A DNA stretch of 64,000 nt from Brooklawnia cerclae (GTDB lineage: Bacteria; Actinomycetota; Actinomycetes; Propionibacteriales; Propionibacteriaceae), in the NCBI RefSeq assembly GCF_011758645.1, contig NZ_JAAMOZ010000001.1, positions 930,001 through 994,000 on the forward strand, given 5' to 3'. Within the stretch, counting starts at the first letter, position 1; each line of letters begins with the position of its first letter. Positions 4,237 to 19,905 of the stretch are shown piece by piece. Under the pieces are notes generated by a model. The model saw only the letters and a list, made by a program, of their open reading frames with translations. It searched no databases and had not been told where the DNA came from. The position numbers were made by a program, and so were the translations under genes.

Positions 4237-4274
4237 CCTCGAACGTTCCAGCGCCACACACCTCGAACAGTTCG

Positions 4275-4348
4275 TTGCGGGAGCGGGAGTCGAACCCGCA
4301 ACCTCCAGGGTTATGAACCCGGCGTGCCCACCAGTGCACCGTCCCGCC
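4275..4348 (-). tRNA. tRNA-Met (CAT anticodon), phage-encoded
   Basis: A complete cloverleaf can be folded: acceptor GGCGGGA with TCCCGCA, D stem GTGC/GCAC, anticodon loop TTCATAA, and T arm GCGGG-TTCGACT-CCCGC. The CCA end is not encoded. The first acceptor position is a G-A mismatch, and three G-C pairs (GGG/CCC) flank the anticodon loop. Both are hallmarks of initiator tRNAs, although the D-stem pair 11-24 is of the elongator type. A CAT anticodon could also be an isoleucine tRNA after lysidine modification. Confidence 0.8.
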
Positions 4349-11820: not shown

Positions 11821-11968
11821 TTAACCGAGCGGCTCGTCCTGGGGGATCGGCTCGAAGACGTCGAGCAGAGTTTCGAGCGCGTCGATCAGACGCCGGATGT
11901 CGGTGTCGTCCTGCACGCCAGCCTCGATGCGGGGCCTCGATATCAGCGAGACGGTCAGCGGCGCTCAT
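11821..11968 (-). pseudogene. Small phage gene with an apparent frameshift
   Basis: The ATG at 11968 overlaps the repeat-protein stop and reads MSAADRLADIEA, but then runs into a composition unlike protein. One base over, the continuing frame reads RIEAGVQDDTDIRRLIDALE and ends PIPQDEPLG-stop at 11821. Joining the two requires removing one C from the CCCC run near 11930. The restored product would be a coherent 48-residue coiled-coil-like protein. This could be a mutation, a sequencing error or ribosomal slippage. Confidence 0.45.
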
Positions 11969-13035
11969 CGGATGATCTCGTTCCCGTTGATGTCGACCTC
12001 GCGGAGCACGTGCAGGAGCGGGACCTTGGCCTTCGACCAGTCGATGGGCCGCAGGTCGGCGACGGGGCAGGTGACCTCCAGGAAGCGGGTGGCGCCCCAG
12101 AAATGCTGGTGTGCCTGGGCGGGGGTTGGTGAGGCGTGCAGGCCGTAGCCGCACTGGTGGTTGTCGCGCCATTCGTCGGGAGTGACGTCGCCTCCGATCG
12201 GGTAGACGGTCGGCACGTAGTTGTGGCCGGCGGTCAGGTTGTCGTCGACGGCCTTGTAGAGGTGGACGAGGCCTTGCTCGTCGACGGTGACGCCGGTGTA
12301 GTCGAGCCAGTCCTGAATGTTGGTGGGATCGAGGTCGGTCGTGTCGATGACGACGCCGCCGGTGACGGTCGCGGTCTTGGACTGGCGATGGACTGCCACG
12401 TACTTCCCGGCCCGGACGGTGGCCGAGCCCGACGCCTCGACGGTGGCCGAGTCCGACGCCTCGACGGTGGCCGAGTCCCACGCCCGGACGGTGGCCGAGC
12501 CCGACGCCTCGACGGTGGCCGAGTCCGACGCCTCGACGGTGGCCGAGTCCCACGCCCGGACGGTGGCCGAGCCCGACGCCTCGACGGTGGCCGAGTCCGA
12601 CGCCTCGACGGTGGCCGAGTCCCACGCCCGGACGGTGGCCGAGCCCGACGCCTCGACGGTGGCCGAGTCCGACGCCTCGACGGTGGCCGAGTCCCACGCC
12701 CGGACGGTGGCCGAGCCCGACGCCTCGACGGTGGCCGAGTCCCACGCCCGGACGGTGGCCGAGCCCGACGCCTCGACGGTGGCCGAGTCCGACGCCTCGA
12801 CGGTGGCCGAGTCCCACGCCCGGACGGTGGCCGAGCCCGACGCCTCGACGGTGGCCGAGCCCGACGCCCGGACGGTGGCCGAGTCCGACGCCTCGACGGT
12901 GGCCGAGTGGTCCTGGCTCACCGTGAGCCAGGTTCCCGGGGGCGATTTGATGACGATGGTGGTGTCGATGTCGTCGCCGTGCTCGGCGAACGCCTTATCC
13001 AGCTCTTCCTGGGTGGTGACGGTGATGATGCTCAT
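11965..13035 (-). CDS. Octapeptide-repeat phage protein
   Basis: 356 residues. An N-terminal segment (MSIITVTTQEELDKAFAEHG, then IVIKSPPGTWLTVS) is followed by about 21 tandem eight-residue units of the form SATVEASD/SATVRAWD (residues 44-211). A conserved-looking C-terminal domain follows, with LVHLYKAVDDNL, CGYGLHASPTPAQA and FLEVTCPVADLR. Regular alternating Val/Ala and small polar residues suggest a beta-solenoid. RBS AAGGAGAT precedes the ATG. Similar repeat proteins occur in actinophages without known function. It sits between recombination and methyltransferase genes, so it is an early protein rather than a tail fibre. Confidence 0.7.
   Translation of the reverse strand: MSIITVTTQEELDKAFAEHGDDIDTTIVIKSPPGTWLTVSQDHSATVEASDSATVRASGSATVEASGSATVRAWDSATVEASDSATVEASGSATVRAWDSATVEASGSATVRAWDSATVEASDSATVEASGSATVRAWDSATVEASDSATVEASGSATVRAWDSATVEASDSATVEASGSATVRAWDSATVEASDSATVEASGSATVRAGKYVAVHRQSKTATVTGGVVIDTTDLDPTNIQDWLDYTGVTVDEQGLVHLYKAVDDNLTAGHNYVPTVYPIGGDVTPDEWRDNHQCGYGLHASPTPAQAHQHFWGATRFLEVTCPVADLRPIDWSKAKVPLLHVLREVDINGNEIIR
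12403..12906. repeat. 24-bp tandem repeats in 72-bp higher-order units
   Basis: About 21 units of 24 bases (GACGGTGGCCGAGTCCGACG is most of one unit) encode the octapeptides. Three unit types alternate, differing at GAGCCC/GAGTCC and GACGCCTC/CACGCCCG, and give a 72-base super-repeat that is nearly identical from copy to copy. Since 24 is a multiple of three, all six frames stay open. The near-identity at synonymous positions points to recent expansion by slippage or unequal crossing-over. Confidence 0.9.
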
Positions 13036-13970: not shown

Positions 13971-15824
13971 TCACTTGGTGAGGGTTAGGTGGGGTTGCGG
14001 TGCCGCGTTGGCGACGGACCCGGGATGTCCCGGGCATCCGGTCGCGAGATCGGCCGATCCGCGCCGGAAGAATGGGCAGAAGGCGCACCAGCTGTCGTGT
14101 GTGCCGAGCAGGGCGAGGGATGCCGGGCCGAGCAGCGAGGTGACCTGGGCGATGCCCGCCAGCCGGGCGATCGCGTCGAGGGCGACCTGCTCGGTGTAGG
14201 GCTCGGACCACAGGTAGGCCTCGGACAGCTCGCCGTTGCGGGGAAGGAACGCGATCATGACGGTGCGGACGGGAAAGCCGGACAGCACCCACGCGTAGCC
14301 GTAGAGGTTGGCCTGCACCCGGTACTGCTGGCTCGGTCCGTCGGAGCGGTAGTGCTTGAGCTGGGAGGGCCCGACGCAGTTATGCACGGGGATCATGTCC
14401 CTGCCCGCCAGATACAGATGACTGGATGAGTTGACGTCGATGCATCGTGTCGGCACGGAGCCGGCAGGTTCGATGGACTCGACCAGCCGGTATTGCGACC
14501 TTGTCGTTCCCTCGGTGTGGACCAGGTCGGCCTTGCGGGGGAGCCTGAACGGGTTCGCTCCGAACGGCACGAACGCCACCTGGTAGGCGGTCACGGTCTT
14601 GCCGAACCCGTGCGCGAGCTGTGGGTAGATCCGGGCCCTCCATCCGAGGGTCGCGACAAGCTCGCGGACGCCCTCAGCGAGGACTTCCGATGTCGTGGTG
14701 AACACGGCCTGATTGCGGCGCCTGTTCCACGTGCCGTCGGTATCCATGAGGCCCTGCAGCAGGTCGAGCCGCTGATGGTAGCTGGCGCGTAGGTAGCTGG
14801 CCGGAATTTCCTTCTTCCCGGCGATGACCTGTCGCTGTTTCTCGCCGGGTCGTCCGCGATGCCCGTCGACCCACTGGAGACCGAGTTCCCGCAGCTGGGT
14901 CTGCAGGCCGTGAACCGTGCGCGTGATTCCCCGCTTGTCGGCCGGGCCGACGTCGTAGCCGCATTCCCGGATGTTGTCGAACAGAGCCTCATCTGGTTTG
15001 CCGATCGTCCCGTGGACCGTTCCACCGTCGCCGAGCCACGCACCCAGCACGTACGGGTGGACAGGCAGCTCAGCCTCGGGAAGTAGGAGCGGGCTGGCGT
15101 TGTAGAGGCGGAGCTGGCGTTGACGGTGCCCGCCCGGCTCGCGGACTATGGCTCTCAGGTCGGCGACGGAAGCGGTCACCGTCTTCTTGCCGCCGACGCT
15201 GACGGTCAGCTGCTGCACGTCGTCGGTCACGATGGACGTGCCGTCGGTGAACGAGACGCGGAAGCAGGGTCGCTGCTGAACTGGATACGTCTTCACGACT
15301 TGGCAGGTCAGGCCGTGCGGGCTGAAGACCGTGTCCCCGGCCTTCAGGTCAGCCTGAGTCGTCCATCCGTCGGGGGTGGGGATCGGGGTGTCGAGCGGGA
15401 GTCCTTTCCAATCGACGACCGTGGCGGTCACCCGGTCATACAGGTCGCAGTTGCCTTCCAGCTGATAGTCGAGGTGGGGGACCACACCTGCCGAGACCCT
15501 GTTCTCGATCAGGTACCGCTCTTGGCCGCCGAACTCCGGGTGCGCGAGGTTGTAGGCGTCGAAGACCTCCTCCATCCAGGCGTGGACAGCGGTGCCGACG
15601 GTCGCCTTCCAGTTGTCGCGCTCGGGCTCGGGGAACTTGAGGAGCTTGTAGGCGAGGCGCCGGTCGCACTCGATCCCGACCTCGGACGGGCCGATCTCGG
15701 TCTGCTGGGATCGGGGGTGGTCGGTGATCGCGGTGTGGATAGCCGCCAGGATGTCGGCGGTGGCGCGCTCCACGTTGCCGAGGTCGAGGACCCCGGGCGG
15801 GAGCGGATCGACGATGTCGGGCAT
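13971..15824 (-). CDS. Cas4/RecB-type exonuclease interrupted by an intein
   Basis: 617 residues. The exteins form a Cas4-like nuclease: GIECDRRLAY carries the first iron-sulfur Cys, GTAVHAWMEE the motif-I His, GNCDLYD the metal Asp, and TVVDWK the catalytic D-x-K. C-terminal WCAFCPFFRRGSADLATGC supplies the other three Cys. An intein lies immediately after the catalytic Lys and before CVGPSQLKHY. The ATG at 15824 is preferred over the longer frame. Mature enzyme (about 275 residues) would resect DNA ends for phage recombination with the SSB-like partner. Without splicing the active site is split. Confidence 0.8.
   Translation of the reverse strand: MPDIVDPLPPGVLDLGNVERATADILAAIHTAITDHPRSQQTEIGPSEVGIECDRRLAYKLLKFPEPERDNWKATVGTAVHAWMEEVFDAYNLAHPEFGGQERYLIENRVSAGVVPHLDYQLEGNCDLYDRVTATVVDWKGLPLDTPIPTPDGWTTQADLKAGDTVFSPHGLTCQVVKTYPVQQRPCFRVSFTDGTSIVTDDVQQLTVSVGGKKTVTASVADLRAIVREPGGHRQRQLRLYNASPLLLPEAELPVHPYVLGAWLGDGGTVHGTIGKPDEALFDNIRECGYDVGPADKRGITRTVHGLQTQLRELGLQWVDGHRGRPGEKQRQVIAGKKEIPASYLRASYHQRLDLLQGLMDTDGTWNRRRNQAVFTTTSEVLAEGVRELVATLGWRARIYPQLAHGFGKTVTAYQVAFVPFGANPFRLPRKADLVHTEGTTRSQYRLVESIEPAGSVPTRCIDVNSSSHLYLAGRDMIPVHNCVGPSQLKHYRSDGPSQQYRVQANLYGYAWVLSGFPVRTVMIAFLPRNGELSEAYLWSEPYTEQVALDAIARLAGIAQVTSLLGPASLALLGTHDSWCAFCPFFRRGSADLATGCPGHPGSVANAAPQPHLTLTK
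14379..15404 (-). other. Intein with LAGLIDADG homing endonuclease, class 3-like
   Basis: 342 residues, beginning GLPLDTPIPTPDGW and ending DMIPVHN before the extein Cys. The first residue is Gly instead of the nucleophilic Cys/Ser. The F block RCIDVNSSSHLYLAG carries the Cys diagnostic of class 3 inteins. In class 3 the Cys works with a Trp in block B and a Thr in block G; here block B reads DDVQQLTVS (expected HLW) and block G ends PVHN (expected PTHN), so His, Trp and Thr are all changed. Two LAGLIDADG motifs, YVLGAWLGDGG and LLQGLMDTDGTW, flag a homing endonuclease. Confidence 0.8.
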
Positions 15825-15831
15825 GCCGGGC

Positions 15832-16176
15832 CTACTTGACCGAGACGCGGGGTTCGCCGTAGGCGACCGACAGCGACGCATACACGGCCGGAGGCAGGAT
15901 CTCCTTGGCCTTGGCGCGGGAGATGACGGTCTCCTGGATGGCGGGCAGGAGCTGCGGGGCGTTCGCGGTGACCCAGTCGAGGGCCAGCTCGGAGCTGAAC
16001 CGCTTCTGCGGGGTGACCGACACCGGGCCGTATTTGCCGGGTGCGAGCACCCGCCACTTGGCCTTGATGGCCTCCATCTCGGCGGTGATCTGCTCGGCCA
16101 TGGCCGCGAGTTCGCGGTAGCGGCTGACGTCGGCGGGATCGACCTTCCAGTCGGCCTGGGGGATGGTGGTGGTCAT
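15832..16176 (-). CDS. Partner protein of the phage Cas4-like nuclease, unknown
   Basis: 114 residues from an ATG with AGGA upstream. Starts MTTTIPQADWKVDPADVSRY and has a helical segment MAEQITAEMEAIKAKW followed by APGKYGPVSVTPQKRF, then a second helical part. It directly precedes the nuclease gene. The coiled-coil segment suggests a protein-protein or DNA-binding role. No family recognised. Confidence 0.55.
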   Translation of the reverse strand: MTTTIPQADWKVDPADVSRYRELAAMAEQITAEMEAIKAKWRVLAPGKYGPVSVTPQKRFSSELALDWVTANAPQLLPAIQETVISRAKAKEILPPAVYASLSVAYGEPRVSVK

Positions 16177-16307
16177 GCCTGATTCCTTTCTGATCGGGTG
16201 TTGTCGAGGGCAGCGAGGCGCTCGGCCTCGGCGAGGACGCGGGCTTCGAGTTGCGGGTCGTAGTCGCCCTGGTCGCCGAGCCACCAGGGGCAGTAGGTGC
16301 CGCTCAC
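16173..16307 (-). CDS. Small phage protein
   Basis: 44 codons from a GTG overlapping the upstream stop (GTGA) and ending in ATGA on the next gene. It begins VSGTYCPWWLGDQGDYDPQL and continues with a helical ARVLAEAERLAALD. Exact overlaps on both sides support it as a real, coupled gene. No family recognised. Confidence 0.5.
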   Translation of the reverse strand: MSGTYCPWWLGDQGDYDPQLEARVLAEAERLAALDNTRSERNQA

Positions 16308-18334: not shown

Positions 18335-18742
18335 ATGGATTACATGCTGCAAGTGCCGGACGGCTGGACGCTGGAATGGCGTCCGCTTGCCGGCCACCGC
18401 ACAGGGGAGATCAGCTGGCCCAACCGGACGATCGTGATCGACCCGACACGATCACCGGAGAGTCAGCGCTGCACGCTCACCCATGAGGTGATCCACGCCG
18501 AACGCGGTCCCGTGCTCGGCGACCCCGTGCTGATCGCACGCGAGGAACACGCGGTGGAAGAGGAAACCGCGCGCCGTCTCATCGGCATCGATGAGCTGGC
18601 CGACACGCTCGCGTGGACACACAACCTCCCCGAGGCGGCCGACGAGCTCGGCGTGGACACCCACACCCTGAGAGCCCGTCTGGATCGGTTGCGCCCGGGG
18701 GAGCGCGCATGGCTGACGAGGAGGCTCGATGGCGATCGATGA
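18335..18742 (+). CDS. ImmA/IrrE-family metallopeptidase
   Basis: 135 residues. LTHEVIHAERG is the zinc HExxH motif, with a downstream Glu region REEHAVEEETARRL as third ligand, followed by a helix-turn-helix-like LPEAADELGVDTHTLRARL. Family members cleave or inactivate the neighbouring repressor to trigger induction or excision. The start is uncertain: a TTG at 18314 is in frame, but the ATG at 18335 begins the protein-like sequence. It overlaps the integrase gene by 14 bases. Confidence 0.8.
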   Translation: MDYMLQVPDGWTLEWRPLAGHRTGEISWPNRTIVIDPTRSPESQRCTLTHEVIHAERGPVLGDPVLIAREEHAVEEETARRLIGIDELADTLAWTHNLPEAADELGVDTHTLRARLDRLRPGERAWLTRRLDGDR

Positions 18743-19811
18743 TCTGTGGTACCTCAAGGACAGGGTGACGCCATCGAAGCGGCACGGCCGTGGCAAGCGA
18801 TACCGCGTGCGCGTCGAGGGCTATCCGAGCACGCTGCACCGGACGAAGGCCGAGGCCGAGGCGGTCAACGCCAGGCGCATCGTCGCCGGGCCGCCGAAGC
18901 CGGAGTCGACGATCACTGTCGGAGAACTGCTCGATCGCTGGGTCGCGGGCAAGCGGCACTTGTCGCCGAAGGGCCTCGAAGCGTGCGAGCTCGCGGCGAG
19001 GATGGCGCGGGCACGCTGGGGGACGACGCTGGCGTGCGACGTCAGGACGGCGGACGTGCAGGAGTGGGTCGCCAACCTCGCATCGATCGACAACGCCGCG
19101 TCGGCTCACGCGTCGAAGGCTGCGGGACAGCGTGTCGTCGTCACCGTCCCGGCCGCCGGGTCGACGCGGCACAAGGCGTTGCAGGCACTGTCGGGTGCCA
19201 TGCGGATCGCAGTCGGGGAGAAGGCTGTCAGCTCGAATCCGTGCCAGGGGGTGAGGGCCGGTCGGCAGCGGAGCGTCGATCCGAGCTTCCTGACGGTCGC
19301 GGAGCTGGAGCGCCTCGCGTCAGAGTCGGGGGAGTGGTCGGCGCTCGTCTGGTTCCTCGGCACGACCGGCCTGCGGATCTCGGAGGCCGCGGCCCTGACC
19401 GTCGGGGATGCCGATGCGAAGCGGGGGCGCGTTCGTGTACGGCGCTCGAAGAACGGGGAAGCGCGCGACGTCCCTGTGGCGGCGTCGGTCCTGGCGATGC
19501 TCGACCTCTCCCGTGGTGCTGCCGACCCGCTCTTCCCGGCTTCGCGCGGAGGACGCCTGGATGTCCATAACTGGCGGATGCGAGCGTTTCGTCCGGCGGC
19601 TTCGAGGGCGGGCCTGGACGGCCTGCGCATCCATGACCTGCGTCACACGGCGGCGAGTCTGGCCATCGCCTCGGGCGCGGACGTCAAGGCCGTGCAGCGT
19701 ATGCTCGGCCACAAGAGCGCGGCCATGACCCTCGACCTGTACGGGCATCTGTTCGACAAGGGCCTCGATGACGTCGCGGCCCGCCTCGACGCGATGATCC
19801 CCGGATCGTAG
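18729..19811 (+). CDS. int: Tyrosine-type site-specific integrase
   Basis: 360 residues. An N-terminal arm-binding domain (GKRYRVRVEGYPSTLHRTKA) and a core-binding SAM-like domain (ITVGELLDRWVAGKRHL) precede the catalytic domain. The catalytic residues are visible: Arg in TTGLRISEA, Lys in RRSKNGEAR, HDLRH, HKSAAMT and the nucleophile Tyr in LDLYGHLF. The gene ends about 45 bases before the tRNA fragment used as attachment site. It would integrate and, with the excisionase-like protein, excise the prophage. Confidence 0.9.
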   Translation: MAIDDLWYLKDRVTPSKRHGRGKRYRVRVEGYPSTLHRTKAEAEAVNARRIVAGPPKPESTITVGELLDRWVAGKRHLSPKGLEACELAARMARARWGTTLACDVRTADVQEWVANLASIDNAASAHASKAAGQRVVVTVPAAGSTRHKALQALSGAMRIAVGEKAVSSNPCQGVRAGRQRSVDPSFLTVAELERLASESGEWSALVWFLGTTGLRISEAAALTVGDADAKRGRVRVRRSKNGEARDVPVAASVLAMLDLSRGAADPLFPASRGGRLDVHNWRMRAFRPAASRAGLDGLRIHDLRHTAASLAIASGADVKAVQRMLGHKSAAMTLDLYGHLFDKGLDDVAARLDAMIPGS

Positions 19812-19854: not shown

Positions 19855-19905
19855 CCTTGCCTTACAAGCAGGGGGTCGTTGGTTCGAGTCCGACTGCGCC
19901 CACCA
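19855..19905 (+). other. attR: 3' part of a tRNA-Val(TAC) gene
   Basis: The sequence holds an anticodon arm CTTGC-CTTACAA-GCAGG, a T arm GTTGG-TTCGAGT-CCGAC and an acceptor 3' strand TGCGCCC followed by ACCA. No matching 5' acceptor (GGGCGCA) or D arm is present upstream, so it is not a working tRNA. A tRNA 3' end next to an integrase gene is the classic right attachment site. The intact tRNA-Val should lie at the left prophage end, outside this window. Confidence 0.8.

Follow-up and report, generated by a model that had tools for sequence, protein, structure and literature searches.

A class 3 intein in a Brooklawnia cerclae prophage nuclease keeps its block F Cys after joint loss of block B His, Trp and block G Thr

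We analyzed a stretch of 64,000 nucleotides from Brooklawnia cerclae (the window, i.e., the whole stretch at its full length), which carries on its reverse strand a phage nuclease gene that is interrupted by an intein. All coordinates are positions in the window. Residues of the nuclease are numbered from the start of its open reading frame (ORF) at 15881, those named as intein residues from Gly160 (Gly1). The ORF matches the PHROG 1674 exonuclease with an E-value of 2e-60; the Pfam model PDDEXK_1 reaches 17.4 bits on the N-extein, which is below its cut-off of 22 bits. Judged by sequence, the product is a Cas4-like PD-(D/E)XK phage exonuclease. Translation probably starts at codon 20 (position 15824), because the upstream gene (15832-16266) ends within the first 17 codons of the ORF. 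This choice is without effect on the intein finding.

A reading of the nucleotide sequence by itself (in the following, the sequence-only reading) had placed a 342-codon intein directly after K159 of TVVDWK, i.e., after the catalytic Lys of the nuclease. We can confirm this placement with ten intein-less homologues (phages Constance, Madraxi, Tarzan, TM4 and TPA4 as well as the bacterial genomes L018 and L163-L166). Precisely these 342 residues are missing from all of them, such that DWK (DHK in one, DLK in one) is joined directly to the segment that follows the insert. The boundaries are thus K159|G160 and N501|C502. Shifted boundaries that supply an ordinary first nucleophile, which the sequence-only reading had named as grounds for giving it up, are ruled out by both junctions in these homologues. 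The insert is in frame, carries splicing motifs, has an exact junction and is missing from homologues of its host protein, i.e., it has what is expected of an intein. The Pfam model Intein_splicing found no match in the B. cerclae genome; the same model matched in 6 of 14 control genomes. Features are listed in Table 1.

Table 1. Features of the nuclease gene, its intein and the adjoining prophage end
Feature	Window positions	Strand	Evidence or note
Nuclease ORF with intein	13971-15881	-	636 codons
N-extein, first part of the nuclease, ends TVVDWK with Lys159 as -1 residue	15405-15881	-	PHROG 1674; intein-less homologues
Intein, 342 residues (37.6 kDa), class 3 type with LAGLIDADG endonuclease	14379-15404	-	alignments, structure matches
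N-terminal half of splicing (HINT) domain, intein residues 1-104 (boundary set by us)	15093-15404	-	alignment
Block B Q-Q-L (intein 64-66; protein 223-225), H-x-W in relatives	15207-15215	-	alignment
Homing endonuclease domain, intein residues 105-300 (boundaries set by us)	14505-15092	-	Pfam LAGLIDADG_3, E 8e-8
First LAGLIDADG motif, PYVLGAWLGDG	15024-15056	-	alignment
Second LAGLIDADG motif, DLLQGLMDTDG region	14733-14765	-	alignment
C-terminal half of splicing domain, intein residues 301-342	14379-14504	-	alignment
Block F Cys, intein 321, protein Cys480, class 3 nucleophile	14442-14444	-	Cys in 271/272 other distinct relatives
Block G V-H-N (intein 340-342), T-H-N in relatives	14379-14387	-	Thr in 270/272 other distinct relatives
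C-extein, Cys502 (+1) to Cys-rich tail and stop	13971-14378	-	45-55% identity to closer intein-less homologues
Prophage integrase	18729-19811	+	PHROG integrase, E 4e-59
Right attachment site, 46 bp identical to genome position 909625	19858-19903	.	exact repeat

The alignment puts Q223-Q224-L225 opposite the block B motif H-x-W (DHIHQWVV in Mycolicibacter algericus vs. DDVQQLTV in B. cerclae). That is, the block B His has become Gln and the Trp Leu, while in block G the Thr is replaced by Val (Val499, PVHN for PTHN). The intein is therefore without two of the three WCT residues and without the block B His. In the published class 3 structure, Cys, His and Thr form a triad (PMC7664689), and the Trp of WCT is thought to be structural (PMC7891396). 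Retained are Cys480, His500, Asn501, the +1 residue Cys502 and the His at its usual block F position (intein residue 329). Both LAGLIDADG motifs are present with their acidic residues, from which we read the endonuclease as intact. The sequence-only reading had named Gly1, Cys480, His500, Asn501, Cys502 and PVHN, all of which reappear in translation and alignment. It had also called both LAGLIDADG motifs intact, in agreement with the conserved-position count given below, and its picture of an intein that has the class 3 Cys and lacks the His and Trp of block B and the Thr of block G is borne out by alignments and census. It was right about an altered block B, although its register (QLT) was one residue off. 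Its summary that most splicing residues are altered proved too strong: three N-junction or core positions are changed, while Cys, His, Asn, the +1 Cys and the His at intein residue 329 are in place.

To which class the intein belongs can be read from its kin. We aligned 22 relatives with the same kind of insert, whose hosts include two kinds of mycobacteriophages, a Streptomyces phage and a M. algericus genome. In all 22, [DE]-x-K precedes the insert and block B H-x-W, the block F Cys and the THN end are found; intein residue 1 is Gly in 20 and Ser in the other two (Bixzunavirus). This is the class 3 pattern as published (PMC3196547, PMC5050341, PMC7664689, PMC7891396, PMC4031507), and 18 relatives that show it share 37-50% identity with the B. 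cerclae intein. A search of solved structures with the intein alone returns class 3 DnaB inteins as best matches (6rix, 6riy and 6bs8, E 8e-23 to 1e-21). The intein itself agrees with class 3 in its kinship, in a first residue other than Ser, Thr or Cys (Gly160) and in the Cys at block F position 4 (Cys480); it departs in having Leu225 for Trp at block B position 12 and Val499 for Thr at block G position 5. On this comparison of sequences, it belongs among the class 3 inteins. Class 2, whose members are kin of KlbA and have Ala1, a His in block B, an Asp in block F and Cys+1 (PMC4031507), was rejected: Cys+1 is present, but residue 1 is Gly, the block B His is missing and block F holds a Cys.

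We also took a census of relatives. Both halves of the splicing domain were present in 366 ORFs from 402 loci (the others were dropped before counting), which gave 273 distinct inteins including that of B. cerclae. Among the 272 others, His is kept in 271, Trp in 272, Cys in 271, Thr in 270 and the terminal Asn in 271. The B. cerclae intein is the only one of the distinct relatives read in which His, Trp and Thr are lost and Cys is kept; none of the 272 combines a retained Cys with a missing His or Trp, and no clade of such inteins was found. The census is not a random sample since the alignment-based viral scans each kept the best 80 of at least 373-592 confirmed matches, i.e., it leans to well-conserved relatives and very odd inteins are under-sampled. 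Published class 3 departures amount to 6.1% of 1701 inteins at the Trp position and 4.6% at the Thr position (PMC7891396). The only other relative without the block B His, L144 (genome G301, contig 10, 14768-15745), has Gln in its place, Arg for the block F Cys and no THN end, and by its sequence is plainly decayed. Another relative, L081, ends in PVHN like the B. cerclae intein, yet keeps H-x-W and Cys. Sequencing error is an unlikely source of the three changes, because they affect three separate in-frame codons in a contig of 2.9 Mb.

To compare the two domains, we counted losses at positions conserved in at least 90% of 122 relatives. In the endonuclease, the B. cerclae intein has lost none of 30 such positions; in the splicing domain it has lost 3 of 18, and these three are the His, Trp and Thr. 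None of the other 15 splicing-domain positions is lost, and Cys480, His500 and Asn501 are kept. Two of the relatives (L138, L142) are wrongly joined partial hits; they remained in the pairwise-identity and regression comparisons below, not in the trees, and repeating the count without both gives the same result for the B. cerclae intein. The chance that three random losses among 18 positions all fall within His/Trp/Cys/Thr is 0.005, which serves as a guide only given that positions are unequally mutable. The splicing domain holds 13 rare residues (median 8), a number that 30/121 relatives reach or exceed, and no compensating residue was picked out among the 13. No endonuclease loss is also observed for 54/120 relatives. 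With respect to the open frame, 50 random changes in the intein left it without a stop in 22% of trials, such that the open frame is weak evidence.

The exteins look constrained at the sequence level. Aligned with intein-less homologues, they retain the visible nuclease motifs (PRSxQ..GPSE, His, D...DxK, QxxLYG and the C-terminal Cys). Their end branches in separate trees are 0.47 (N) and 0.35 (C), with 0.39-0.52 and 0.33-0.60 for the nearest intein-less genes L163-L165. A second homologue of the C-extein was not found in the B. cerclae genome, the gene is present in 0/7 other genomes of the genus searched, and the C-extein alone as query in the viral scan confirmed no relative. Among C-extein homologues of other genomes, L172, L173 and L176 are flagged with 1, 1 and 2 stop codons, respectively, within an open-frame reading.

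We favor the reading that the B. cerclae intein still excises through Cys480, probably slowly or only in some conditions, and give it a probability of about one half. The sequence-only reading had left the choice between a dead intein and splicing by a route outside classes 1-3. Both alternatives, dead or unusual, stand, but such a route is not required: a reduced class 3 route is what the relatives suggest, as do the Cys480 that remains and the solved structures nearest to the intein. In the splicing domain, the core Trp is gone, as are the residues by which the N-junction is usually activated (the block B His with the Thr that partners it), but nucleophile and C-terminal chemistry are preserved. 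Splicing itself, and which residues would help in it, we infer as follows. Cys480 would attack the bond between Lys159 and Gly160, on which strain from the bulky Lys at -1 would take the place of the hold by His. The N-extein would then pass to Cys502 (most relatives have the less nucleophilic Ser or Thr at +1), Asn501 would cyclise beside His500, and the joined exteins would form a nuclease of about 32 kDa. Loss of the Thr would be understandable because the His that it holds is already gone.

Studies of other inteins lend support to single steps of this scheme. In the class 3 AceL NrdHF intein, Met naturally replaces the Trp and a Leu there makes splicing about sevenfold slower, while Thr to Ala makes it about tenfold slower; both forms stay active (PMC7891396). 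In the class 1 Ssp DnaB intein, large -1 side chains can replace the block B His, with its M86 form regaining splicing; the same work discusses natural inteins that have Lys or Leu at -1 (PMC6333167). Tko CDC21-1 also splices without a block B His (PMC4031507). Going further, and only tentatively, this would be a natural class 3 intein that splices by Cys alone: the triad is cut to the Cys, strain from the host's catalytic -1 Lys activates the N-junction and Cys+1 draws the reaction on, such that an active-site residue helps to free the nuclease that it serves.

A number of observations weigh against continued excision. First, three losses are not unique, i.e., at least three conserved splicing-domain positions are lost in 4/120 relatives, one of them the decayed L144; the other three retain His, Trp, Cys and Thr. 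Lowering the conservation cut to 80% adds the losses M17 and T80 (splicing domain) and H199 (endonuclease). Second, the splicing domain is out of step with the endonuclease. For pairs at 50-66% endonuclease identity, the mean splicing-domain identity is 0.378 for B. cerclae (15 pairs) vs. 0.552 for others (207 pairs, sd 0.097), and none of the other members that have three or more such pairs (55 in all) falls as low. A regression across all pairs also puts the B. cerclae splicing domain at the bottom of 121, on a par with the canonical L040. This is also reflected in trees of the 60 nearest of the 122 relatives plus the B. cerclae intein (61 rows; 8 decayed or split hits were excluded beforehand): the end branch of its splicing domain is 1.08 even without the three sites (median 0.5), while that of its endonuclease is 0.39 (median 0.62). 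A quick splicing-domain tree ranks its branch third after those of L040 and L074, which both keep their catalytic residues. Third, the third-position GC content falls to 0.74 over the final 42 codons of the intein, while the remaining parts of the ORF have 0.82-0.90. Fourth, the N-extein end branch (0.47) exceeds the median of its tree (0.30), and the arrival of the intein may be recent, so that the extein constraint may be older in part. Finally, the class 3 intein of AceL NrdHF tolerates the single loss of Trp or Thr, not that of the block B His, where H68A abolished splicing (PMC7891396); the only class 3 intein studied without this His, Arsp-FB24, in which the Cys is also gone, is a pseudogene (PMC3196547); and the intein in which the -1 strain effect was demonstrated belongs to class 1, not class 3 (PMC6333167).

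The divergence, the GC drop at the C-terminal end, the H68A result and the Arsp-FB24 precedent also speak for an intein that no longer splices. The nuclease would then be left as inactive precursor, and the endonuclease of the intein would be intact because the loss is recent or because homing by itself is selected. That the block B His is lost along with two class 3 signature residues, and that L144 as the sole other His-less relative has decayed, adds to this. Measured against the codons most common in relatives, on the other hand, at least two bases had to change for the Trp, as many for the Thr and one for the His; the remaining conserved positions are nonetheless spared. Furthermore, Cys480, His500, Asn501 and Cys502 are kept though free to be lost, and the exteins are intact, unlike the 66 residues in total left in Arsp-FB24 (PMC3196547). 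A dead intein is a real possibility, above which we rate continued excision somewhat.

A partly active intein that cleaves one junction, more likely the C-terminal one by Asn501, and seldom ligates is rather improbable. The intein has lost the helpers of the N-junction but not its C-terminal residues (the His at intein residue 329, His500, Asn501), and C-cleavage dominated in an engineered gp41-1 intein with a grafted WCT motif (PMC7664689). In AceL NrdHF, however, C-cleavage also stopped when the Cys was blocked (PMC7891396), and such activity would yield no working nuclease whereas the exteins look constrained.

Regarding ancestry, the nearest kin of the exteins are intein-less genes (51-56% identity for L163-L165), but that of the endonuclease is the M. 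algericus-type intein at the same site (97/81). By these sequence relationships, the intein arrived by transfer. The +1 Cys fits this: it is rare (2/262 non-redundant relatives), and one of the two is of the M. algericus type. The intein might also be a chimera that combines the endonuclease of the Cas4-site lineage with the splicing domain of another, which is compatible with either fate. The splicing-domain tree places it with L059/L094/L052/L085 (95/87), a grouping that the endonuclease data reject (p 0.0002); their own tree groups it with L002 of the M. algericus type. We consider a chimera unlikely, as the splicing-domain data do not reject placing the intein beside L002 (p 0.25) or among the 22 Gly1/Ser1 rows as a whole (p 0.17), its long splicing-domain branch may mislead the tree, and the +1 Cys is common to the B. 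cerclae intein and the M. algericus type.

If the intein does splice, class 3 chemistry can do without the His and Thr of the proposed protease-like triad, and nature would offer an example for the idea that the block B His can be replaced by a bulky residue in front of the intein. If it is dead, it would be a fresher class 3 pseudogene than Arsp-FB24, with exteins and endonuclease whole and the splicing site hit first. In the usual account of inteins, the endonuclease decays first, i.e., the order of decay would be reversed.

The gene lies inside a prophage of about 40 kb with an exact 46-bp repeat at both ends (window 19858; genome 909625), which looks like the 3' end of a tRNA. Its gene set comprises integrase, primase/polymerase, DNA methyltransferase and terminase as well as portal, major head, major tail, tape measure, tail fibre and endolysin-like genes for structure and lysis. 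From its sequence, the prophage looks complete rather than a remnant because of the matching ends together with head, tail, lysis and integration genes. It further holds an ORF of short SATVEASDSATVRAWD-like repeat (11965-13035, reverse strand) matching Pfam Gp5_trimer_C (phage trimerisation beta-solenoid) and DUF7666, a phosphoadenosine phosphosulfate reductase-like gene adjoining other phage genes (2709-3407, reverse strand) and a tRNA-Met (CAT) gene (4274-4348, reverse strand).

Finally, we compared the B. cerclae intein with known systems. The M. algericus Cas4-site intein (L016; near-identical L001, L002 and L175) shares site, Gly1 and Cys+1 with about 48-50% identity over the intein and is its sister in the endonuclease tree; it differs in keeping H-x-W and PTHN, and its exteins are distant (about 34-35% identity). 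The mycobacteriophage Cas4/RecB-like exonuclease inteins (Bixzunavirus L023, L024; Fromanvirus L021, L022, L025, L026) have the site after [DE]-x-K, the block F Cys and LAGLIDADG in common with it, but show the full H-x-W, THN and Thr+1, and Ser1 in the Bixzunavirus ones. MP-Catera Gp206 is presumably such a Bixzunavirus-type Cas4/RecB-site intein. Inteins at this site, of the Bixzunavirus kind, have already been described in cluster C1 mycobacteriophages (PMC5050341). The DnaB inteins of 6rix, 6riy and 6bs8 are mini-inteins of 139-146 residues with Ala1 and Cys-His-Thr (PMC7664689), where B. cerclae has Cys-Gln-Val. The AceL NrdHF intein has the class 3 Cys and also departs at the Trp position (Met there, Leu here), but is split and keeps block B His and Thr (PMC7891396). 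Arsp-FB24 Arth_1007 is likewise a prophage-derived class 3 relative without the block B His; it differs in that the block F Cys is gone too, the exteins are reduced as stated and inactivity was shown (PMC3196547). Tko CDC21-1 is natural and without block B His as well, but it is not class 3 and splices aided by Lys58, for which no counterpart was identified in the B. cerclae intein (PMC4031507). In the literature searched, which covers few subscription papers, we found no report of a class 3 intein with the block F Cys but without block B His, Trp and Thr. Single departures at Trp and Thr are known (PMC7891396), while the joint loss of His, Trp and Thr with the Cys kept appears to be new.
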